NCBI GenBank assembly: GCA_027621915.1
Contig: JAQCAD010000030.1
Coordinates: 1 to 39,574 of the forward strand
DNA: 39,574 nt
DNA from: Pseudomonadota bacterium
Lineage (GTDB): Bacteria; Pseudomonadota; Gammaproteobacteria; Steroidobacterales; Woeseiaceae
Reading direction: 5' to 3'
Shown here piece after piece: positions 6,018-30,600 of this stretch. Each line of letters starts with the position of its first letter. Positions within the stretch are counted from its first letter, which is position 1. The notes below the pieces were generated by a model. That model did not search any database and was not told the origin of the DNA. It saw only the letters and a list, made by a program, of their open reading frames with translations. The position numbers were made by a program, and so were the translations under genes.

Positions 6018-7066
6018 TTACAGTACTACCGGGCGACGGAATTGGTCCGGAAGTTGCCAGCGCAGGCGTCAAGGCGCTGCAGCGAATTGCGGAAGTGTAT
6101 GGGCATACTTTCGAGTTTTCCGATCAGCTGATCGGTGGTGCCGCCTTGGACGCCGTGAGTGATCCATTCCCGCCGAGTACAGCGGCAAGTTGTAAGGAAA
6201 GCGATGCGATCCTTCTGGGCGCCGTCGGAGGCCCTAAATGGTCAGACCCTAATGCGCCTGTCCGGCCAGAACAGGGACTTCTGGCGTTACGCGCTGCGCT
6301 CGAAGTTTTCGCTAACATTCGGCCGGTTCAAATTTTCGACGAACTGGCGGATGCCTCGCCTATCAAGGCAGATCGACTGCAGGGCGTGGATATGATCGTC
6401 GTGCGCGAACTGACCGGCGGAATCTATTTTGGCAAGAAGACCCGCGACGCAGAGTCCGCGAGTGACCTTTGCATTTATCATAGATACGAGGTTGAACGCA
6501 TTGTCAGAGTTGCCGCAAGACTTGCGAGAGCGCGATGCGGAGAGCTTTGTTCGGTCGACAAAGCCAATGTCCTTGAGTCATCCAGATTCTGGCGCGACAT
6601 AACGATCACTACGATCGCAAATGAATTTCCCACCATTAAACTCGAGCATATGCTTGTCGACGCCGCTGCCATGCACCTGATCAATCAACCAGCGGCTTTT
6701 GATGTAATCGTTACAGAGAACATGTTTGGCGACATCCTGACGGACGAAGCATCCATGCTCGCAGGGTCACTGGGCATGTTACCGTCCGCGTCGCTCGGCG
6801 ATACGGCCCGCGGCCTTTATGAGCCAATTCACGGCTCCGCGCCAGATATTGCCGGCAAAGGCATTGCTAATCCATGCGGCATGATCGCCAGTGCGGCGCT
6901 GCTCCTCCGGCACAGCCTGGGGCTGCAAGAAGAAGCCACAGCTTTGGAACAGGCAATTCACCAGGCGATTGCAAACGGCGTGCGTACCGCTGACATCGCT
7001 GAAAAGAACGCCCCTGTTGTCTCGACTACAGAAATGGCTGATGCGATCATTCAGCGACTACACTAA
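6005..7066 (+). CDS. leuB: 3-isopropylmalate dehydrogenase
   Basis: NAD-dependent oxidative decarboxylation of 3-isopropylmalate to 2-oxoisocaproate. GDGIGPEV at residues 10-17, the RELTGGIYFG block in the first half, and ENMFGDILTDEAS with the NAD-site EPIHGSAPDIAGK in the second half are the isopropylmalate/isocitrate dehydrogenase signatures. Length 353 is typical. ATG 6005 has GAGGAAAC upstream and lies within the end of leuD. It is the last gene of the operon: its final 20 bases overlap the end of the convergent metB, and no terminator hairpin is evident between them. Confidence 0.97.
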   Translation: MEALITVLPGDGIGPEVASAGVKALQRIAEVYGHTFEFSDQLIGGAALDAVSDPFPPSTAASCKESDAILLGAVGGPKWSDPNAPVRPEQGLLALRAALEVFANIRPVQIFDELADASPIKADRLQGVDMIVVRELTGGIYFGKKTRDAESASDLCIYHRYEVERIVRVAARLARARCGELCSVDKANVLESSRFWRDITITTIANEFPTIKLEHMLVDAAAMHLINQPAAFDVIVTENMFGDILTDEASMLAGSLGMLPSASLGDTARGLYEPIHGSAPDIAGKGIANPCGMIASAALLLRHSLGLQEEATALEQAIHQAIANGVRTADIAEKNAPVVSTTEMADAIIQRLH

Positions 7067-8243
7067 GTGTCGGCAAGCTCGTAATTCGTTCCGCCGCATT
7101 TAATGCCTGAAGCACATCCACAACCAGATCTTCACTGCATTCGATACCGACTGACAACCGGATCAGATTCGGCCGGATGCCGGCCTCCTTTAACGCATCT
7201 ACGCTAACGGGCGCATGTGTCATGGTCGGCGGATGGCAGACCAGACTTTCTACGCCGCCCAATGATTCTGCCAGCGAAAAAAATCGCAGGTTTTCAACGA
7301 AAGCTTTAACCGCCCCTTCGCCGCCTGCAATCTCGAAGCTGATCATTCCACCGAAACCGCACTGCTGCTGTACCGCGGTTTCATGGCCAGGGTGTGTACG
7401 CAGGCCCGGGTAGTAAACTCTTTCGACAGTTTTGTGCTCATTGAGAAGCTCGGCGAGGATGTTCGCGTTCTTTTCATGTTGCTGCATCCGGGCATGCAAC
7501 GTTCGAATCCCCCTCAGCGTCAGATAGGCATCAAACGGCGCCCCGGTTAACCCCAGGCAATTTGCCCACCAATCCATTTTCTCTGCGAGTTCCGAAGTGG
7601 CAGCAACGACGGCACCGCCAACAACGTCGCTGTGGCCATTGAGGTACTTTGTTGTTGAATGGATAACCAAATCGGCCCCCAGCTTGATTGGTTGTTGCAG
7701 CACCGGTGACAAGAACGTGTTATCGACAGCCAGGAGGGCACCGCACGCCTTTGCCGAAACGCTCATTTCCGCAATATCGACGATTCGCAGCAGTGGATTT
7801 GATGGCGCCTCGACCAGAATCAGGCGAGGCTTTTGGGCACACGCCCCCTGAACAGCGTCCTTGTCTGTCTGATCGATAAACAGAATGTCAAAGTGGCCTT
7901 TCTTCGCCAGATTCTCGAACAAACGGAATGTGCCGCCATAACAATCATGAGGTGCAACAAGCAAATCGCCCGGCTCAAGCAATTGAAGCATCAGGTTCAG
8001 AGCAGCCATTCCCGAGGAAGTGACCGTTGCGCCCACTCCCCCTTCGAGCTGGCACAAAGCACCGGCAAGCGCGTCACGAGTAGGATTTCCGCTTCTCGTG
8101 TAGTCGTACTCGCGTTTGACGCCATATTTTTCAAACGTGTAATTCGTCGAGAGGTGTAACGGCGGTACGACGGCGCCGTACTGCGTATCGGTCTCGAGTG
8201 CTGCCCGAACCGACGCCGTCGCCGAATTTATTTGGAAAGTCAT
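7047..8243 (-). CDS. metB: Cystathionine gamma-synthase (trans-sulfuration family)
   Basis: PLP enzyme that joins an activated homoserine (probably O-succinylhomoserine) with cysteine to form cystathionine in methionine synthesis. The PLP lysine is Lys199 in HSTTKYLNGHSD; DYTRSGNPTRDAL (47-59) and the SSGMAAL block (76-82) are family signatures. The frame is open 51 codons further upstream, but the start is placed at ATG 8243 (MTFQINSATASV). GCGGAG precedes it at the right distance, homologues begin here, and the upstream stretch is the riboswitch. The protein is 398 residues. Control is visible: a SAM-I riboswitch and a hairpin burying the binding site. O-acetylhomoserine sulfhydrylase or cystathionine gamma-lyase activity cannot be excluded from sequence. 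Confidence 0.92.
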   Translation of the reverse strand: MTFQINSATASVRAALETDTQYGAVVPPLHLSTNYTFEKYGVKREYDYTRSGNPTRDALAGALCQLEGGVGATVTSSGMAALNLMLQLLEPGDLLVAPHDCYGGTFRLFENLAKKGHFDILFIDQTDKDAVQGACAQKPRLILVEAPSNPLLRIVDIAEMSVSAKACGALLAVDNTFLSPVLQQPIKLGADLVIHSTTKYLNGHSDVVGGAVVAATSELAEKMDWWANCLGLTGAPFDAYLTLRGIRTLHARMQQHEKNANILAELLNEHKTVERVYYPGLRTHPGHETAVQQQCGFGGMISFEIAGGEGAVKAFVENLRFFSLAESLGGVESLVCHPPTMTHAPVSVDALKEAGIRPNLIRLSVGIECSEDLVVDVLQALNAAERITSLPTLSVVAE

Positions 8244-8248
8244 TGGCT

Positions 8249-8304
8249 GGTCTCCGCATTGTTCCGAATAGCGACACGAAGTCGCCTCTTGCTCATCGGA
8301 GACC
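8249..8304 (-). promoter_or_regulatory. Ribosome-binding-site sequestering hairpin of metB
   Basis: On the minus strand GGTCTCCG (8297-8304) is perfectly complementary to CGGAGACC (8249-8256). The second arm contains the Shine-Dalgarno GGAG of metB. The loop holds a smaller hairpin, GCGAC/GTCGC (8271-8285). No U-tract follows, so the riboswitch output is probably translational rather than termination. The fold is predicted by eye. Confidence 0.6.
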
Positions 8305-8375
8305 TGCGAAAACGCAAGGAACAGTGCCGCCACCACTGCCAGACCTTGGATTTCCAGCCTGACTTGTCGAACGAC

Positions 8376-8490
8376 ACCCATCTCTCGGAAGTGCACGGCA
8401 CTCCGCAGGAGTTGGCACCTTTCAGGAGAGTTAATCCTGGAGGTTGCCCCGGCTTCACTGGGCCTTTCCCTCAGCCGGTCTCGATGAGTC
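8376..8490 (-). ncRNA. SAM-I (S-box) riboswitch aptamer upstream of metB
   Basis: Read on the minus strand, the conserved S-box core appears in order: CUCAUCGAGA, GCUGAGGGA, GGCCCAGUGAAGCC, GGGCAACC, GGUGCCAACUCC, and the closing GAGAGAUGGG. P1 forms between ACUCAUC (8484-8490) and GAUGGGU (8376-8382). The aptamer binds S-adenosylmethionine and lies about 130 bases upstream of the metB start. When SAM is abundant it should lower MetB synthesis. The class is certain by motif; the expression platform is inferred from the sequestering hairpin. Confidence 0.93.
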
Positions 8491-8496
8491 GTACGG

Positions 8497-8526
8497 AGTC
8501 TAGTTACCAGGGCGGTAGAACGTCAA
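8497..8526 (-). promoter_or_regulatory. Promoter of the metB riboswitch transcript
   Basis: On the minus strand TTGACG (8521-8526) is followed after 18 bases by TAGACT (8497-8502). Transcription would start close to base 8490, just at the riboswitch P1 helix, which fits the aptamer position well. Confidence 0.5.
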
Positions 8527-8646
8527 GGCCGCGAGGCGATTTATTAACGATCAATTCATTTAATAAATAATATTGCATATGTAATAACCTGGCTGAAATT
8601 CAAAACTATTCTCCAACATATGCACCAATTGCCTACATTTCATTCG

Positions 8647-8666
8647 TGTACCATTGTACTGGTACA
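8647..8666. promoter_or_regulatory. TrpR-like operator in front of the YerC/YecD-type regulator
   Basis: A perfect 7-bp inverted repeat TGTACCA / TGGTACA is separated by six bases. The central 18 bases begin and end with GTAC and agree at about 13 of 18 positions with the Escherichia coli TrpR box consensus. It ends 18 bases before the start codon of a TrpR-family protein, so autoregulation is the natural reading. No other copy was noticed in the window. Confidence 0.55.
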
Positions 8667-8684
8667 TCACTACACGGATACGAC

Positions 8685-9020
8685 ATGAAACCCAATCGCA
8701 ATGACTCAGGTGCCTACAGAAAGCGCACGGAAGACTCACTTTTTCGGGCCATCATGGCTCTTCGGGATATTCATGAGTGCAGAATCTTTTTCAAAGACCT
8801 GTGCAGTCCGGCCGAGCTACAGGCGCTGGTCGACAGATGGAAGGTCGTCGAATTACTTAAAGACAATATTTCCTACCGACGCATCAACGAAATAACCGGC
8901 GTCAGCGTAACGACCATAGGACGTGTAGCCAGATGCCTCGTTGACGGATGCGGCGGCTATGCTCTTGCGTTGGAAAATTCAGTCAGCTCGCACCATGGGC
9001 AAAAGCCTGGCAATTCCTGA
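8685..9020 (+). CDS. TrpR-like transcriptional regulator, YerC/YecD family
   Basis: A helical, DNA-binding TrpR-superfamily protein. Residues SLFRAIMALRDIHECRIFF, DLCSPAELQALVDRW and the helix-turn-helix ISYRRINEITGVSVTTIGRV, then RCLVDGCGGY, follow the YerC/YecD pattern closely. The frame is open from GTG 8646, but that start would lie inside the operator. ATG 8685 (MKPNRNDSG), with GGA nine bases upstream, is preferred, giving 111 residues with an extended C-terminus. Relatives in Xanthomonadales and Firmicutes have been linked to histidine-biosynthesis control. The target here is unknown, because the neighbours are methionine and lysine genes. It is transcribed divergently from metB, about 440 bases away. 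Confidence 0.85.
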   Translation: MKPNRNDSGAYRKRTEDSLFRAIMALRDIHECRIFFKDLCSPAELQALVDRWKVVELLKDNISYRRINEITGVSVTTIGRVARCLVDGCGGYALALENSVSSHHGQKPGNS

Positions 9021-9137
9021 CAACATTTTCATGTCGCCAGCGTCGGAGCGCGTCCATAGAAAAGCCGGTGGAGATTTCCTGCCAATCGCAATATATGTTC
9101 CTTGTTAGGGCGTGTGGCGGGCTAAATTATAGGCAAT

Positions 9138-9608
9138 CTAGTCGCAAGACGGCCGTACACGACTATCGTGCCCATAGAAGGCCACGATGCGCCAGTCGCC
9201 ATCGATTTTTTGCAATACGTAGAGCGTCGTCCTGATGGCGGGAGGAATCGGCTCGCCATTCTTATCGATTCTCGAGAAGCGGGTGTCAACCAGAGCCAGT
9301 GTTTCAGAGGCAATGCAAACTTTGAGATTTTCTATACGGGACTCGACCCAGCCCTGCGCTTCCAATTGCGCATAAAGGCCAGTTAGATTCGTGACGGCGG
9401 CCGCGGGATCCGACAACACACTGTGCCCGTTTCCCCCACCTACGTGAACCGGTGTCGAGTAAATATGGTTCGCGACTAATTCAACATTTTTCGCGTTGAA
9501 CTCATCAAAATACTCATGCAATTTCGCGCCGGCATCGTCGGCGTCGTCAGCTAACGCACAGGCGCCGGGGACAACTGCCAGTAACAAAATGATCAACTTG
9601 TTCATCAT
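9138..9608 (-). CDS. Secreted SnoaL/NTF2-like protein
   Basis: A 156-residue protein with an N-terminal signal peptide (MMNKLIILLLAVVPGACALA). Cleavage is likely after ALA before DDADD, placing it in the periplasm. The mature part (LHEYFDEFNAKNVELVANHI, then GDWRIVAFYGHDS at the C-terminus) has the cone-shaped NTF2-fold pattern of SnoaL/DUF4440-type proteins, in which a final beta strand reads 'DGDWRI..'. No catalytic residues can be assigned. The Cys in PGAC is not a good lipobox. It begins 11 bases after the lysA-like gene on the same strand and is probably co-transcribed. Function unknown. Confidence 0.75.
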   Translation of the reverse strand: MMNKLIILLLAVVPGACALADDADDAGAKLHEYFDEFNAKNVELVANHIYSTPVHVGGGNGHSVLSDPAAAVTNLTGLYAQLEAQGWVESRIENLKVCIASETLALVDTRFSRIDKNGEPIPPAIRTTLYVLQKIDGDWRIVAFYGHDSRVRPSCD

Positions 9609-9619
9609 TGTTCCTGTCC

Positions 9620-10765
9620 CTATAGGGTTATTTCTGGCGGAATATCTCTGAGATTATAGCTCGAACTCATCACTCGACCATATGCGCCGGCGTTCGCGAT
9701 CAAGATCACATCGTTTTCCTGACTGCGGGGGAATGGTCGATCCGTCCCCAGTTTATCACCGGATTCGCAAATCGGGCCAACAACTGTCACCGTTTCAGTT
9801 GCTTCATCGCTGATTCGCGTAAGGTTTACAATTTCGTGGTAAGCACCGTATAGCGCAGGCCTGATCAAAGAATTCATGCCGGTACTCACCCCGACATAAC
9901 GCATTTCTGATTTGCCTTTCAGTTGGGTCACATGAGCCAGAAGCACGCCAGCGACGGCTACCAGGTAGCGTCCCGGTTCGAGCCAGAGTTCATATTTCGG
10001 ATGTTGTTTTTTGAATGCCATTAACCTCTCGTCAAGCGCACTGAGATCAAATCGGACATCGCCTCGATTCTCAGGCACACCGAATCCGCCGCCAAGATCC
10101 AGAACTGTAACGTCCGCGAATCGATCGGCTGCCTCAATCAATGCGTCAGCTACTGCAGCCCAGTTGTCCGGTTCGTTGATACCGGAACCGCTATGCGCGT
10201 GTATGCCAATCACTGTGGCACCAGCGGCTCCTACCAAATATTTCAGCTCGTCAAGTTCCGACAGAGAAACGCCGAACTTTGAACGTTTCCCAACCGTTAC
10301 CACGTGCTCGTGGTGACCACCACCCTGGTTCGGATCGATGCGAATAAATAATCGCTGTCCATCGAAAAGCTCTGGCCACGCTTTTAATGGATATAGATTA
10401 TCCAGAGTGACACGCAGGCCTTCCTTGATGCCCCATTCATACTCGTCCCTGGGCGCGAAATTTGGCGTGAACAGAATTCTATCCTTGGCATTATCGGGCA
10501 ATACTTCCCGAAGGTGTCGCACTTCGCCCGGAGATACACAATCGAAATCTGCGCCTGACCTGGCAAGTGTCCTGAGTACGTCCGCATTAAAATTCGCTTT
10601 CATCGCGTAAAGAACGCGGGACACCGAACGCATTGAAAGAATGTCGCGGGCTGCGTTTTCTATTGATTCGAGGTCATACACGTAAGCGTTAAGATGTCGC
10701 CCCGCTACCTTCAATAGTTCATCGCGCTTGCGAAGCCACCAGATGGTCTCCTGTTTTCGCTGCAT
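9620..10765 (-). CDS. lysA: Diaminopimelate decarboxylase-type PLP enzyme (stand-alone LysA domain of LysAC type)
   Basis: Fold-type III decarboxylase, most likely converting meso-diaminopimelate to L-lysine. Numbered from ATG 10765, Lys56 in YAMKANFN is the PLP lysine. HAHSGSG (189-195), GGGFG (225-229), EPGRY (263-267), CESGD (333-337) and AYG..MSSSYN (361-371) are the cofactor and substrate motifs of DAP decarboxylases. The sequence resembles the decarboxylase half of the fused aspartokinase-LysA protein (LysAC) of Xanthomonas, but no kinase domain precedes it here. The frame is open to GTG 10825, which abuts a terminator and lacks a binding site. ATG 10765 follows GGGAAAGAGG and is preferred (381 residues). 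A related amino-acid decarboxylase substrate is possible. Confidence 0.85.
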   Translation of the reverse strand: MQRKQETIWWLRKRDELLKVAGRHLNAYVYDLESIENAARDILSMRSVSRVLYAMKANFNADVLRTLARSGADFDCVSPGEVRHLREVLPDNAKDRILFTPNFAPRDEYEWGIKEGLRVTLDNLYPLKAWPELFDGQRLFIRIDPNQGGGHHEHVVTVGKRSKFGVSLSELDELKYLVGAAGATVIGIHAHSGSGINEPDNWAAVADALIEAADRFADVTVLDLGGGFGVPENRGDVRFDLSALDERLMAFKKQHPKYELWLEPGRYLVAVAGVLLAHVTQLKGKSEMRYVGVSTGMNSLIRPALYGAYHEIVNLTRISDEATETVTVVGPICESGDKLGTDRPFPRSQENDVILIANAGAYGRVMSSSYNLRDIPPEITL

Positions 10766-10828
10766 CCTCTTTCCCGCGTTATGCCGTACCTGTTCGTCCG
10801 TTTGTGGCGTCGCTTCTTCATACACACT

Positions 10829-10940
10829 GAAATAAAAAAAACCCGCACGGAGATCCTTGCGGGCTTTATGACAGTTTCCGAGCTCTTCTAATACGGCCGG
10901 TTTCCCCGTCGCTCTTACCCACGCACCTCTGGCGCGCCAT
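10829..10940 (-). ncRNA. Unidentified leader RNA or small RNA ending in a terminator, upstream of lysA
   Basis: Between a predicted promoter (10946-10975) and a strong terminator (10834-10863) lies a transcript of about 110 bases that stops before the lysA start. The 5' part reads CCAGAGGTGCGTGGGTAAG, whose AGAGGTGCG and AAGAG elements recall the start of lysine riboswitches. The GCCGAAG core and the length of that class are missing. A hairpin ACGG/CCGT follows. GGTGCGTGGG (10918-10927) could pair with CCCGCA of the terminator stem to form an antiterminator. A 24-codon Arg-rich ORF (10866-10940) ends exactly at the terminator stem, so peptide-coupled attenuation is another option. An independent sRNA is a third. 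Confidence 0.45.
10834..10864 (-). terminator. Rho-independent terminator between ilvD and lysA
   Basis: On the minus strand CCCGCA (10858-10863) pairs with TGCGGG (10842-10847), with GG/CC continuing the stem inward, followed by eight Ts (10834-10841). It lies downstream of a promoter-like element and 70 bases before the lysA start, so it can end ilvD transcription and also attenuate lysA. Confidence 0.85.
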
Positions 10941-10945
10941 TGGTT

Positions 10946-10975
10946 TTAATAATTATCGGGTATTGACTGGGTCAA
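10946..10975 (-). promoter_or_regulatory. Predicted promoter of the lysA leader
   Basis: On the minus strand TTGACC (10970-10975) and TATTAA (10946-10951) are separated by 18 bases in an AT-rich patch. The predicted start is near 10939. It lies in the ilvD-lysA gap and directly precedes the leader RNA. Confidence 0.45.
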
Positions 10976-11060
10976 CACCACGGCACAATACGTGGGTAGA
11001 TAACTAATTTGTCGACGCAGTAAATCTGACCCGGACCTTAAGGTCAAGCTTGACAATCGA

Positions 11061-12749
11061 TCAATTTTCCCAGGGTGGAGCAACCGTTACAGCTCCTTCC
11101 GACGCTGACAGCACTTCCGCTCTGTATTTCGCCAGGATTCCGCTTGTCACACCGGACTTCGGCCGCACCCAAGCTGCGCGACGTTTGGCCAGTTCTTCGT
11201 CCGAGATTTCCAAATTGACCACGCGTTCCTGCGCGTCAATGACAATACGATCTCCGTCCTCAATCAGGGCGATGGCTCCGCCTACGGCCGCCTCCGGTGA
11301 CACATGACCGACTACAAAACCGTGACTCCCTCCTGAGAATCGCCCATCTGTTATCAACGCTACATCTTTGCCCAGGCCTTTTCCCATAATCGCAGCGGTC
11401 GGGCTTAACATTTCGCGCATACCCGGACCGCCCTTCGGGCCTTCGTAACGGATGACAATAACGTCGCGTGCAACGATGTCGCCATCGAGTATCGCCTGTA
11501 ATGCGAGTTCCTCCGAATGATAAACCTTTGCGTTCCCTTCGAAGTGCAGCCCCTCCTTGCCGGAAATTTTTGCGACAGCACCTTCTGAAGCGAGATTGCC
11601 GTACAAGACAACCAGGTGGCCTTCCGGCTTTATCGGGTTATCGAAATCTCGAACCACATCCTGGCCGATCGGATAGTCCGGCACGTCCGCAAGGTTTTCC
11701 GCTAACGTTTTGCCGGTAACCGTCAGGCAGTCACCATGCAACAGACCATGTTGAAGCAATCGCTTCATCAGCGGCTGAATACCGCCGATAGCAATAAGTT
11801 CAGACATCAGATACTTCCCGCTCGGCTTTAGGTCAGCGAGTACCGGCGTCTTTGCGCCAATCCTCGTGAAATCAGCCAGTCCGAGAACTACACCAGCTTC
11901 TCTGGCCATCGCGATCAAATGAATTACCGCATTCGTCGAACCACCGATCGCATTGACAACGACTATTGCGTTTTCGAAGGCCTCCATTGTCATGATGTCG
12001 CGCGGCTTGATGTCTTTCCTTAGCAAATTCATGACAGCCTCGCCCGCACGCAGGCAATCGTCAATCTTGCTTGCTGAAGTGGCTTCCTGAGCGGAGCTGT
12101 TTCCGAGACTCATGCCCAGCGCCTCAATCGCCGATGCCATCGTGTTTGCGGTATACATACCACCGCAGGCGCCTGGTCCAGGTATCGCGGTCCGCTCAAC
12201 TTCCAGCAATTCGGCGTCGCCGATTTTTCCGCCGGCGTGAGCGCCAACCGCCTCAAATACGGAAACAATATCTCGTCGCTTCGCGCCTGGCTTGATCGTT
12301 CCACCATAAACGAATATCGCGGGCCGATTCAGCCTCGCAATCGCCATGACGCAAGCCGGCATGTTCTTATCACAGCCACCAATACCGATGAGACCGTCAA
12401 ATCCTTCAGCGCCCGCAACTGCCTCAATCGAGTCTGCGATAATTTCTCGTGAGACCATTGAATATCGCATCCCTGGCGTACCCATAGCGATGCCATCAGA
12501 TACTGTAATCGTATTGAAAATGACACTCTTGCCGCCTGCCGCATCCGCGCCCTCGCCGACTTTCTTCGCAAGGCTGTGGATGTGCATGTTACATGGCGTA
12601 ATCATGCTCCAGGTCGATGCAATTCCGATTTGAGGTCGTTTGAAATCCTCTTCGCAAAATCCGACAGCGCGAAGCATTGCTCGACTGGGCGCTTGTTCAA
12701 CGCCATCAACAACGACGCGAGAATAACGACGCAGCTTGTTTTCTTCCAT
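11061..12749 (-). CDS. ilvD: Dihydroxy-acid dehydratase
   Basis: Fe-S enzyme that dehydrates 2,3-dihydroxyisovalerate and its methyl homologue, the step after IlvC in Val/Ile/Leu synthesis. The three cluster cysteines are Cys53 (TPCNMHIH), Cys126 ([15 protein letters not shown]) and Cys195 ([14 protein letters not shown]). The 562 residues are those of the shorter IlvD branch rather than the 616-residue E. coli enzyme. The C-terminal swivel domain contains [20 protein letters not shown]. It is separated from the ilvC-leu operon, on the opposite strand, 51 bases downstream of the kinase gene. A terminator and promoter follow it before lysA. Identification is firm. Confidence 0.96.
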
Positions 12750-12800
12750 TGGGTTTCGCTCGATTCAGTTGCAACTATTTTTTACCGCAGAGCTTTTCGT

Positions 12801-15383
12801 CTACGAGTCATCATCCCGAATTATAACCGCGATTTGTGAAAAAATGTTGGAATCACGAGAGACTGATTCTGTCTTCAGTTCGACCATGAAAGCCTCATCA
12901 GCCTCCGGCCTCGCATCTTGCCCCAGCGGTATGAGTATACGAGCAGTGCGCTGACCGGCCGCGAAATACACTGATGTGATTCGTGGCGAAAAGTAATCCT
13001 GCCCTTCAGTTGCTGTTACGTCCTGGAGGACGTAGTTAATCTCCAGCGGAGTGTTATCCGGGTTATATCGGACAACATCAATTTGCGCCGCGGGATCAAA
13101 CTCGCGGACAGATACCTGATTAACCACGAATGCGACTGTGTTTCTGGGCAAGCTACGCTCGAATGTTCGCTGATCATCGTCTTCCAGACGCAAGCCGATT
13201 CGGGCCAGATCAACTCCGGGATCAGATGCGTCCCTGATCTGTAACACGACATCTCGATCTGGCTCACGAACCGGATTTGAACGCATTGAAATGACTATAC
13301 GCACACGATCCTGCCCGGCAGCGAATGTTACCTGCCCCTCATTCTCGACGAAATACTGTCCCGATTCCCACGGGGACTGGTTACCACTGAAGTCCGCCTC
13401 TGAAATTCTGGCGGACATAGGCTCTGTCGAATTTTCTCTGAATAAATCTACGATTGCCGGATCACCGTCTTCCCGAATTACTAGCGGGATTGCAGTTGGC
13501 AAGTTGACGCCAGGCACAAGATTAACGGTCAAAGTTGCGGGCGGCAGCGTTGAATAATCAATGAAATTTGTCTCTGCCGGCGCCTGACCTGGAAGCTCCG
13601 TCGCCACCACCGCATCAATTTCAACGAGTTCGGATGCGTCAACCCTTTTTCCCTGGTCGGCCAGTCCCCCAACATCGCTCTGGTCGGGTTCAATAACGTC
13701 CGCAAATGTGCCACCTTCTTCAACCGCGAATTCGGCGACATCCTGTGAGGTTTCATCGACAGGTGGCACGTCAATGATCTGTGGTTCCGCTCTGAAGATG
13801 TCCGCCACAGGTGTGACGTCGATTGTTTGAACGGCTTCACCGATCTGGTCAACTATCCGGGTCTGCGATACAACCAAAGCAGCCGACGCCACGATAGCGG
13901 TTCCGAAGATGAACAAGCGCCAGGGTGATCGACCTGTGGAATCGTCATCATCATCCGGGTCGTACATGATCGGTTCTTTTTCAGCACGAATCGGCACGAC
14001 GATCGGGCTTTCGAATCGGACACCCGGCGCAATTGCGAGTTTTGTGTGAATAACCTGCTCGGAGTCGAGATCTTCCTGGACTTTAGGTACTGGTTTCTTG
14101 CTCTCCGACAAGTTGGCCGGAGATGCCTTGCCGATCTTCATGCCTAACGCTTTAACGAAGGCATCTGTCGACTCGAAGCGTGTCACTCTGGAATATGAAA
14201 GTGCTTTCTTGAGCGGCTGCCATTGCTCATTGGCAAGGCCTTGCGGTTGCTGCGGCTCCATACCTTCTTCGGCAGCTTGTGCTGCGTTTCTGGGGCCGAA
14301 CACGCGATACCCGGCAACCAAGCGGTACATGAGGCAGGCTAGCGAGAAAACATCATCGGCAGGAACCGGATTCTCGCCGGTCAGTACCTGCATGCTCGAG
14401 TACGCAGGCGTACCGGCTCGCACGACTGCCGGATCAAATCTTGACTTACCTTCGTTCTCTTTCTGCCGTACTCGCGCTACGCCGAAGTCAATCACCTTAA
14501 CCTGACCGGTCGGCGAAATTATTATATTTCCGGGCTTTACGTCGGCGTGAATGACTCCCCGCTGATGTGCGTAATCGAGCGCTCTCGCCGTTTGCCTGAC
14601 GATGTCCATCGCCGTTGGCAAATCGAGACCCTGGCTGTGTTCGTCGTCAAGAATGCTTGAAAGCGACCGACCGTCGAGCCATTCCATAACGATGAAATAC
14701 AGGTCACCGTCCCTGTCAAGGTCGATAAATCGAACGATATTCGGATGGGTCAGACAGCGCCCTTTTGCCGCCTCCTGCTGCAATGCACGAAGTGCCGATC
14801 CATTTCGCGAGAGTTTAGGACTCAGCACTTTTATCGCGACGTAAGCGCCTTTTTCCCCGGCTTCGGCAAGGCGCCTGTCAAGCGCCTTGTACACGACGCC
14901 CATGCTGCCTTCTGACACCTTTTCTTTTAGCAGAAATCGGTCGCGCAGCACGGATCCCACCTGGAGTTGCTTGTCGGCGACTGCAGTCTGTTGCGCCTGG
15001 CCATCGACCCTGGATCGCGCCTCATGCTGAGCTTGCGCCTGATCCTCTATGACGGCAGTTCGTATGAACATCTCGTCACCGAATGAAGCCGTTGCTGGAA
15101 GCGGCGAACGGGCCAGTTCCTCAGTGACGATCTTGCCCACCAGGTTTAGCACCAATTCATAGGTTTCTTTGCGCAATTGCCCTGCGGCGAACTGCCTTTG
15201 AAGCATCGCACGAATGAGCTCTTCGTTTTCGCTATTGCCCGACAACAGCGACCGCATGGTCGCTCCGACTTCCGCCAGCATGGCTTCATCGCTCGGATGC
15301 CCATGAAATCGGCTTTCCAGCTTTGCGAGCTGCTCCAGGTAATCCGGGCTTGTTTTGTCAGGCTCTACGCTCATATCTGACAT
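12801..15383 (-). CDS. Membrane-anchored Ser/Thr protein kinase with periplasmic Calx-beta repeats
   Basis: An 860-residue fusion. Residues 1-140 are a helical N-terminal part. The Hanks-type kinase (about 150-415) has VSEGSMGVVYKA as a changed glycine loop (first Gly is Ser157), Lys185 in VAIK, VIHADVKPGN with catalytic Asp281, VIDFGVA with Asp299, and GTPAYSSMQ in place of the usual APE-type motif. The HRD arginine is Ala280, making it a non-RD kinase. An acidic YDPDDDDDS stretch precedes one transmembrane segment (about 489-506). The periplasmic part has an acidic linker and two Calx-beta-like units (about 633-737 and 748-859), each ending in a DDD turn. Key catalytic residues are present, so activity is likely. 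It is in line with the dehydrogenase upstream. Its target is unknown. Confidence 0.88.
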   Translation of the reverse strand: MSDMSVEPDKTSPDYLEQLAKLESRFHGHPSDEAMLAEVGATMRSLLSGNSENEELIRAMLQRQFAAGQLRKETYELVLNLVGKIVTEELARSPLPATASFGDEMFIRTAVIEDQAQAQHEARSRVDGQAQQTAVADKQLQVGSVLRDRFLLKEKVSEGSMGVVYKALDRRLAEAGEKGAYVAIKVLSPKLSRNGSALRALQQEAAKGRCLTHPNIVRFIDLDRDGDLYFIVMEWLDGRSLSSILDDEHSQGLDLPTAMDIVRQTARALDYAHQRGVIHADVKPGNIIISPTGQVKVIDFGVARVRQKENEGKSRFDPAVVRAGTPAYSSMQVLTGENPVPADDVFSLACLMYRLVAGYRVFGPRNAAQAAEEGMEPQQPQGLANEQWQPLKKALSYSRVTRFESTDAFVKALGMKIGKASPANLSESKKPVPKVQEDLDSEQVIHTKLAIAPGVRFESPIVVPIRAEKEPIMYDPDDDDDSTGRSPWRLFIFGTAIVASAALVVSQTRIVDQIGEAVQTIDVTPVADIFRAEPQIIDVPPVDETSQDVAEFAVEEGGTFADVIEPDQSDVGGLADQGKRVDASELVEIDAVVATELPGQAPAETNFIDYSTLPPATLTVNLVPGVNLPTAIPLVIREDGDPAIVDLFRENSTEPMSARISEADFSGNQSPWESGQYFVENEGQVTFAAGQDRVRIVISMRSNPVREPDRDVVLQIRDASDPGVDLARIGLRLEDDDQRTFERSLPRNTVAFVVNQVSVREFDPAAQIDVVRYNPDNTPLEINYVLQDVTATEGQDYFSPRITSVYFAAGQRTARILIPLGQDARPEADEAFMVELKTESVSRDSNIFSQIAVIIRDDDS

Positions 15384-28968: not shown

Positions 28969-29044
28969 TCCCCGATAGCTCAGTTGGTAGAGCGATTGAC
29001 TGTTAATCAATTGGTCCCTGGTTCGAGTCCGGGTCGGGGAGCCA
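28969..29044 (+). tRNA. tRNA-Asn (anticodon GTT)
   Basis: A complete 76-base cloverleaf: acceptor TCCCCGA/TCGGGGA, D-stem GCTC/GAGC, anticodon stem ATTGA/TCAAT around CTGTTAA (anticodon GTT), T-arm CCTGG TTCGAGT CCGGG, and encoded GCCA. Its 3' half is repeated at 29772-29814, marking it as a likely integration target. Confidence 0.96.
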
Positions 29045-29075
29045 AATTCCAAAATCAAAACAATGATTTACAAAG

Positions 29076-29106
29076 CCCTGCCTTGCGCAGGGTTTTGCTT
29101 TTTTGG
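29076..29106 (+). terminator. Terminator after tRNA-Asn
   Basis: CCCTGC (29076-29081) and GCAGGG (29087-29092) form a stem with a five-base loop, followed by TTTTGCTTTTTT. It ends the tRNA-Asn transcript. Confidence 0.8.
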
Positions 29107-29134
29107 GATCACGCAACAAACGCGCAACATTCAT

Positions 29135-29299
29135 CTGTTGATTTGCACCGAAATTTGACCCAAAAACAGCTATTTATTGCATCGAAAACTGACCCGCCTG
29201 TAGCTTCCTAGGTTTTTTAAAAGCTTGCTATTCCCTTTCCCTGGGGCGGGTCATTTCCAGGTTGCAAAAGGTGGGTCAATCGAACGTGCAAATCAACAG
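29135..29299. mobile_element. Miniature IS21-like element (MITE), no transposase
   Basis: CTGTTGATTTGCAC at 29135-29148 is the exact reverse complement of GTGCAAATCAACAG at 29286-29299. Inside, TGACCC occurs at 29156 and 29190, and its complement GGGTCA at 29248 and 29273. The outer pair is placed symmetrically, 21 bases from each end. Terminal TG..CA ends with internal TGACCC repeats are the pattern of IS21-family ends. No istA or istB and no target duplication are visible, so this is a 165-bp non-autonomous derivative or two abutting IS ends. Family naming is from memory of the end pattern. Confidence 0.6.
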
Positions 29300-29309
29300 G
29301 AGGCTGAAC

Positions 29310-29588
29310 ATGGTCAATCCAAACATACGTGCAAACGAAATTGTCGCGATGTTTCAGAAAAGGCTAAATACGGGTGATGATTCGGAAATTGCTGCGCTTT
29401 CAATAGAGGATATTCAGTCTGCGGATGAGCAACTTGGCGATAGAGATGTTGAGGCCGGTTTCCGGATAGCAATGCGAAATCGAATTGCCGCAATGCAGGC
29501 GAAAGAACAACGGGCTTGGGATGTGTTGAAAGGAATTGCCATCGGTGTGGTGGTAACTGGTCTCGGTGTTCTTTTCTTTGGTCGCTAA
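29310..29588 (+). CDS. Small membrane-anchored protein of unknown function inside the tRNA-Asn scar
   Basis: A 92-residue protein. The frame opens at 29262, but ATG 29310 (MVNPNIRANEIVAM) has AGGAGG eight bases upstream. Residues 1-68 are polar and helical, with acidic stretches (NTGDDSEIAALSIEDIQSADEQLGDRDVE); residues about 72-90 form one transmembrane segment (GIAIGVVVTGLGVLFFG). It resembles a tail-anchored protein. I do not recognise a family. It lies between the intact tRNA-Asn and its partial copy and directly after the miniature element, whose end abuts its ribosome binding site. It is therefore probably acquired DNA. Confidence 0.6.
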   Translation: MVNPNIRANEIVAMFQKRLNTGDDSEIAALSIEDIQSADEQLGDRDVEAGFRIAMRNRIAAMQAKEQRAWDVLKGIAIGVVVTGLGVLFFGR

Positions 29589-29771
29589 TACGAGCAGCCC
29601 GACGGGCGGTTTAAGGAAGCAAAACAGAGAAGCAACTGACCTGAATCAGCATGTAGCCGCAAATCGCGCAACATCTGCACGGACCACAGCGCACTCCACA
29701 CTCTGTGCGGAACGAAAAAAGACTATTCTCGTGCCCTGAGTGCCACTGCGTACCACCGGGTGTCAACGGTA
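29589..29771. other. Remainder of the tRNA-Asn scar, no gene seen
   Basis: No ORF with a start and binding site is seen on either strand. GCCC-GAC-GGGC (a weak four-base stem) follows the small gene. CGCGCAACAT occurs here and also just before the miniature element. No integrase remnant was recognised. Confidence 0.4.
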
Positions 29772-29814
29772 AATCAATTGGTCCCTGGTTCGAGTCCGGG
29801 TCGAAGAGCCAAAT
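29772..29814 (+). repeat. Direct repeat of the tRNA-Asn 3' half (attachment-site-like)
   Basis: 43 bases match 29005-29047 with two mismatches: the anticodon 3' arm, variable loop, T-arm, acceptor strand, GCCA and AAAT beyond it. No 5' half is present, so it is not a second tRNA gene. The copies are 767 bases apart in direct orientation, as attL and attR flank an element integrated into a tRNA gene. Confidence 0.85.
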
Positions 29815-29913
29815 ACCGAAGGCTTCTTACTGGAGCATTTTGAGTTCGGTCATCAAGCCGGCTGCGCCGGGCCATTTTCCGCAACGCACGCTAACGACAG
29901 CGTACTGTATCTC

Positions 29914-30342
29914 CTAGCGGCAGACAGACGGCAGGAAAGTATCTGGAATCACACCGCCCGTGGTACAACCCCAAACGATGCTTCCGTCGGAACTCGTTGC
30001 TGTCAAAAGTACTGTCTGACCTGATATATGAGCGCTCGCCGTATTGCCATACTGAATGGCGACGACGGCGCCATTGACTGATATCGAGTCAACGTATTTC
30101 CCAGTGTAATTCGACGGGACGCCCAAGGCAGCATCAGCATTGTCCACTGGAAATGCACCGCTACTGAAATTGTATTCCTCGACCGCGCTTTTCAGCGGGC
30201 CTGCAAGCTGAAGGCCTTCTGAAATCTGGGCGCGAACTGTGTAGGACTGGTAAGCAGGAATCGCCAATGAGGCCAATAGACCGATGATCGCAACAACAAT
30301 CATTAACTCAATCAGTGTAAATCCGATTTGACGACTTTTCAT
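29914..30342 (-). CDS. Type IV pilin
   Basis: Major-pilin-like protein of the PilA/PilE family, exported and assembled by a type IV pilus machine. The short leader MKSRQIG is cleaved before [19 protein letters not shown], the methylated N-terminus with Glu5 and the hydrophobic polymerisation helix. The C-terminus has the disulfide-bounded loop from Cys in SIVWGC to Cys in PSVCR. The frame is open to 30438, but ATG 30342 gives the standard prepilin start and has AAGGGA upstream; 142 residues. No other pilus genes are in the window, so the machine is encoded elsewhere. It lies about 100 bases from the tRNA-Asn repeat. Pseudopilin is less likely given the C-terminal loop. Confidence 0.92.
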
Positions 30343-30600
30343 TTCAAATCCCTTGAAGAGAACGACCGGGTCCCGCAATGCTTTGTTGGTCGTTGTGTGA
30401 ACCGAATCACGAAGCAAGTATGCGAAAACGTCACACAAATATCGTTGAATGAAGTCACGTTTTTTGCATACGCGGCCTGTTCCACACCGGTTTGTCGACT
30501 ACCGATTATGGTGAATCCGTTAGTCGCACAACAGTCAGCCTGGCATAGCTGTACGCTTGGAAACCCGGCACAGATTGGAGTTGTATTGGGCAGTTACGCT

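Follow-up and report, generated by a model that had tools for sequence, protein, structure and literature searches.

A probable integration scar without an integrase at tRNA-Asn of a Woeseiaceae bacterium

The tRNA-Asn gene and the segment behind it

The window analyzed here, a stretch of 39,574 nucleotides from a Woeseiaceae genome (contig JAQCAD010000030.1), carries an intact tRNA-Asn gene, and the 3' half of that gene is repeated downstream in direct orientation. The features of the locus are as follows.

28969-29044, plus strand: intact tRNA-Asn (gtt), the proposed integration target (ARAGORN; Rfam RF00005, 70.1 bits)
29005-29047, plus strand: putative attL core of 43 bp, which begins at tRNA position 37 and includes the 3' end (direct repeat)
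29071-29097, plus strand: terminator-like hairpin, starting 26 nt past the tRNA 3' end (hairpin comparison)
29112-29129, plus strand: direct repeat of CGCAACA at 29112 and 29123 (spacing 11 bp), candidate arm-type sites for an integrase
29136-29298, no strand assigned: 163-bp miniature inverted-repeat element with presumed IS21-type ends (further copies in the same genome and in G011)
29310-29588, plus strand: 92-aa ORF, putative residual cargo, helical with a hydrophobic C-terminus (ORF list)
29662-29765, no strand assigned: putative inner right end of the element, common to the tRNA-Asn island of G070 (154-bp match including the repeat)
29667-29673, plus strand: CGCAACA, third copy, toward the right end
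29772-29814, plus strand: putative attR core, the displaced tRNA-Asn 3' half, with two mismatches in the acceptor part (direct repeat)
29819-29852, plus strand: what is probably left of the original tRNA-Asn terminator after decay (aligned with the DNA behind tRNA-Asn in G007)
29914-30438, minus strand: type IV pilin ORF, the first chromosomal gene right of the scar (Pfam Pilin, 6e-22)

The initial annotation had reported 43 bases of the tRNA-Asn 3' half recurring at a distance of 767 bases with two mismatches, and both the coordinates and the counts are confirmed. Beyond the core, the direct repeat extends over 55 bp (28999-29053 and 29766-29820) at 89% identity, and the downstream copy begins at tRNA position 37, or at position 31 if mismatches are allowed. 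The next-best place for the core in the window has 21 mismatches on the forward strand and 19 on the other strand, and it is clear from 2 of 43 mismatches here against at least 19 anywhere else in the window that chance is excluded as the source of the repeat. The enclosed DNA had been described as free of an integrase, and indeed none lies between 29047 and 29772 in either the ORF list or a profile search with Phage_integrase; this profile has about 10-11 matches in the genome as a whole (two of which fall under or close to the cut-off), none on contig C29. Elsewhere in the window, a SAM riboswitch is located at 8375-8490 on the minus strand.

Besides overlapping chance ORFs, a single small ORF lies between the repeats. 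It had been presented as a membrane-anchored gene; the one ORF of 92 aa stands, and the hydrophobic C-terminus of its translation is the one sign of anchoring. An AlphaFold2 model of the product is helical (mean pLDDT 76.6), with a weak C-terminal third, and family searches gave sub-threshold matches only in Pfam and NCBIfam and none in PHROGs or PADLOC. There are four distinct homologues. The first, on contig C80 of genome G070 (the ORF is also in JADFHE010000008.1), adjoins a tRNA-Glu with a DUF5677 gene, and the second is on contig JAKEHO010000016.1 (G558). The third, in Methylocaldum sp. 14B (L167, NZ_MSCV01000012.1), belongs to an array of small genes at 6400-13000 with six strict attC-like pairs, probably an integron cassette array to judge from these sites, although the two sites flanking the homologue itself look imperfect by eye. 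In the fourth, from a beta-proteobacterial MAG, the ORF is followed after 4 bp by one attC-like pair. These locations imply that the ORF family tends to sit in mobile surroundings. The strict attC pattern that would mark an integron gene cassette is absent from 29001-30000 of the window, and relatives of the ORF were neither confirmed in the viral_contigs set nor found in phages or plasmids. As a separate observation, contig C80 of G070 (L087:7151-7696) carries three partial tRNA-Glu copies with a promoter-like leader, in 205-bp tandem units, which precede the intact tRNA-Glu and then island-like genes.

The 163-bp element to the left of the ORF ends in TGTTGATTTG...CAAATCAACA and has other copies in the same genome (85% and 80%) and in G011 (83%). 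It was inserted into the segment later, and no target-site duplication is seen by eye. Its earlier description as a miniature IS21-like element holds as far as a multicopy miniature element with inverted-repeat ends is concerned; the istA/istB transposase genes of the IS21 family are missing, the 163 bp having no ORF of their own, and the label reflects ends that we take to be IS21-type.

Elements and empty sites at tRNA-Asn in related genomes

A survey of tRNA-Asn gave a locus in 76 of 78 sources, 67 of the 76 (window included) with an aminotransferase gene upstream. In G005, a genome of the same genus, the tRNA-Asn (C10:437-512) is occupied by a complete prophage, which indicates that this site is used by integrases in the genus of the window. 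The two core copies of the prophage (C10:473-516 and C10:38053-38096) are identical at 44 of 44 bp and enclose ~37.6 kb with genes for a terminase (Pfam, 1.4e-35) and a P22-like coat protein (2.6e-40), and the integrase adjoining the right core copy has an arm-binding domain (9.3e-18) and a catalytic domain, the latter scoring 26.8 bits in one search (cut-off 27.1) and 28.6 bits in another. The prophage and the window segment have the same target gene, the same core start at tRNA position 37, and paired arm-like repeats at a similar distance. Unlike the window segment, the prophage is complete, and its arm-like repeats, GGGTACAA, differ from the CGCAACA of the window, which points to another integrase.

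The CGCAACA copies themselves may be arm-type sites, a reading made post hoc, after inspection of the data. Two identical 7-mers spaced 10-13 bp occur in the interval from +35 to +115 past the tRNA end at 5 of the 76 loci, namely the window, the G005 prophage, and G013, G067, and G030, the last three all close to contig ends. In those three genomes (L047, L108, and L110), the DNA behind tRNA-Asn has 8-bp repeats in pairs spaced 11 bp, which suggests further elements in the tRNA-Asn site. Where the window has its third CGCAACA copy, G070 differs at two bases, and the copy is thus not conserved; near the integrases of the window's own genome (contexts L171-L180), no paired CGCAACA was found.

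G070, which belongs to another genus of the same family, has a tRNA-Asn 3' half at C72:6675 without a 5' half, and window positions 29662-29814 align at 82% over 154 columns with this displaced half and its preceding 104 bp (81%, E 8.6e-25, for the inner right end in the search of family genomes). To the right of the displaced half is an amidohydrolase gene; at 4 of the 76 loci, this gene follows an intact tRNA-Asn at a distance of 44-124 bp, and at a fifth locus it is 2.3 kb behind the tRNA. Of the four ORFs tested from the left side, three are unmatched at all 76 loci; the fourth, an exporter, has only ABC transporter matches of 28-30%, in two of them. Since the right-hand gene stands behind intact tRNAs and the left-hand genes are foreign there, G070 holds an integrated island, of at least 6.6 kb with its left part beyond the contig. 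In G101 (L093), an intact tRNA-Asn directly precedes the G070-type right flank and is colinear with it base by base across the junction; on this alignment, G101 is an empty site for the island, and on the 154-column match, the window shares the island's inner right end. At E <= 1e-4, this end is present in 2 of 107 family genomes, with 14 further family genomes giving chance-level matches (E 0.005 to 0.09), and among 396 order genomes it is again present in 2; both counts include the window's own genome. None of the 13 integrase matches in G070 is linked to its tRNA-Asn island, and the left end of the window segment is not common to any proven element.

Two genomes of the same genus are without the segment. 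In G007, the aminotransferase is 92% identical to that of the window, and the amidase, which stands behind the pilin in the window, ends 312 bp after the tRNA, an interval with a run of about 100 N that qualifies both this empty site and the terminator comparison below. In G004, the pilin ends 449 bp after the tRNA. Neither the 92-aa ORF nor the inner right end was found in these two genomes. The initial annotation had read the repeats as an attL/attR-type arrangement, to be supported by an empty site in close relatives or by larger islands bounded by the same repeat, and the arrangement gains support from both: the segment is missing from G007 (subject to the N run) and G004, and G005 and G070 carry larger elements with the same tRNA-Asn half at their boundary. 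The pattern that was to speak against it, conservation of the segment in all relatives including distant ones, is not seen given the few genomes with the right end. A pilin gene less than 1 kb behind tRNA-Asn is shared by the window, G004, G055, and G114 and was undetected in the other loci; Pseudomonas aeruginosa has a variable pilin site beside a tRNA.

The terminators differ between the two tRNA halves. In 57 of 67 relatives with a recognizable hairpin, the hairpin starts 5-9 nt after the tRNA; in the window, it starts 26 nt past the intact gene, and a weak hairpin lies 7 nt past the displaced half. Compared with the sequence behind the tRNA in G007, the sequence behind the displaced half scores 14.0 (reached by 0 of 2000 shuffles) and that behind the intact tRNA 8.0 (reached by 153 of 2000). 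Both the hairpin positions and the likeness to G007 are expected if the original 3' half and its terminator were pushed to the right and then decayed. Averaged over all relatives, the leader similarity is 8.3 against 6.1 for shuffled sequence at attR and 8.0 against 5.9 at attL; both leaders beat the shuffles alike, and this test therefore does not discriminate between the sides; only the G007 comparison and the hairpin position tell the two leaders apart. Late-terminator leaders resembling the window attL are present in G065 (L119, score 20.5) and G031 (L121, score 17), with no second tRNA half in the sequence examined (220 bp and 19.5 kb), and the left leader of the window may accordingly not be element DNA.

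Origin of the segment

We are highly confident that the ~770-base segment is the scar of a site-specific integration at tRNA-Asn. A tyrosine-recombinase element, whether a phage, a satellite, or an island, would have integrated into the tRNA-Asn 3' half, with the crossover at tRNA position 37 or to the right of it. The tRNA on the left (28969-29044) would thereby have been regenerated, its 3' half now supplied by the element on the attL side, and the original 3' half with its terminator would have moved to the right (29772-29852). The element would later have lost most of its DNA, the integrase included, and what remains would be its two ends, one cargo ORF, and the 163-bp miniature element that jumped in. 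We infer both the recombinase class and the loss after integration, as opposed to the insertion of a short unit as such.

The initial annotation had offered either a decayed island or a very small unit moved in trans, and of these we favor a decayed remnant resembling a cis-mobilizable element (CIME), since apart from the window the right end was found only in a larger island, and since the displaced half shows decay. It is unlikely that the segment is a very small mobile unit, ~0.6 kb long once the miniature element is subtracted, which consists of att ends and one gene and was moved in trans. Such a unit would fit the presence of both ends and one complete ORF, the occurrence of the ORF family alone in an apparent integron cassette array, and the other integrases carried by the same genome; however, the right end in G070 belongs to an island with at least 6.6 kb of other genes, neither the window's own genome nor the 107 family genomes gave a second copy of the segment, and the terminator and acceptor part at attR are decayed. 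Slightly more doubtful still is a self-contained micro-element of ~0.6 kb that would live in tRNA-Asn sites on the integrases of other elements and would consist of two att ends and a small membrane-protein gene, whose family also occurs in integron-like arrays and tRNA-Glu islands. An ancestor of the segment was not found in the 107 family genomes, the 396 order genomes, viral_contigs, phages, or plasmids; no helper element or integrase associated with these ends came up either, with 0 hits in pattern scans of viral_contigs and no match in phages or plasmids.

It is very improbable that the repeat is part of a T-arm tandem array of the kind seen behind tRNA-Asn in relatives. A second tRNA 3' end is indeed located within 400 bp of the tRNA in 13 of the 75 other loci, G007 and G004 included, but the copies in relatives start at tRNA position 52-66 rather than 37 (or 31), the window lacks their GATCAA hairpin motif, and the DNA preceding the window copy is shared with an island and is not an array unit; copy boundaries and flank thus reject this source, and the window copy does not combine the T-arm start, terminator, and conserved hairpin of an RtT-like array. 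Least probable of all is an old partial duplication of the tRNA gene with no mobile element involved, which would suit a repeat confined to tRNA sequence and the missing integrase but not the displaced terminator, the inner end common to G070, or a core start as in an intact prophage.

The arrays are an observation in their own right. At the 13 loci (L053:6449-7200; L039, L042, L057, L090, L105, L106, L107, L109, L111, L126, L129, and L143), the tRNA 3' end is repeated together with the terminator one to four times, and the hairpins have perfect 8-bp arms in 13 of the 14 units in which the motif was found, at 8 loci. Three kinds of arm, CAATCGGC, CAATCCGC, and CAATTTGC, each with its matching partner, indicate compensatory changes, and the arrays may represent a family of RNAs or repeats not yet described. 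The tyrT/rtT repeats of E. coli resemble them. RtT (Rfam RF00391) was found in an E. coli control and is absent from the window's own genome, and Rfam at threshold detected tRNA only, both in seven array loci and in the segment. A literature search on tyrT/rtT repeats and tRNA-Asn arrays found nothing relevant.

Relation to known systems

A literature search on Woeseiaceae islands likewise found nothing relevant. The RtT repeats of E. coli tyrT (RF00391) are similar in that the tRNA 3' end is repeated downstream of the gene, but the boundaries and spacing differ in the window. A CIME, as defined in PMC5704250, keeps attL and attR and has lost the genes for integration and transfer. The segment retains a putative attL and attR and lacks integration and transfer genes, its one ORF having no known family match. 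By these two features, it would qualify as a CIME-type remnant, whose ancestor may have been a phage or satellite as well as an ICE or IME; in contrast to a CIME, it has no adjacent active element.

An integrase-less tRNA scar is an ordinary kind of genome scar, of an already known type, and shows how little of an integrated element may stay readable. What may be useful beyond this locus is the set of signs that separates such scars from tRNA duplications: a displaced terminator, a shared inner end, paired arm-like repeats, and the core start. According to the Islander paper (PMC4383910), tDNA islands lie between an intact tDNA and a displaced 3' fragment of it in the same orientation, include a class with anticodon-centered crossover sites, show size peaks at 13.6 and 40 kbp, and are required to contain an integrase gene. 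The window has the same layout, with the intact tRNA at 28969-29044 and the displaced cognate fragment at 29772-29814 in direct orientation, yet, set against the islands described there, it is far smaller than either peak and has no integrase, and island finders that require one, such as Islander, would miss a scar of this kind.
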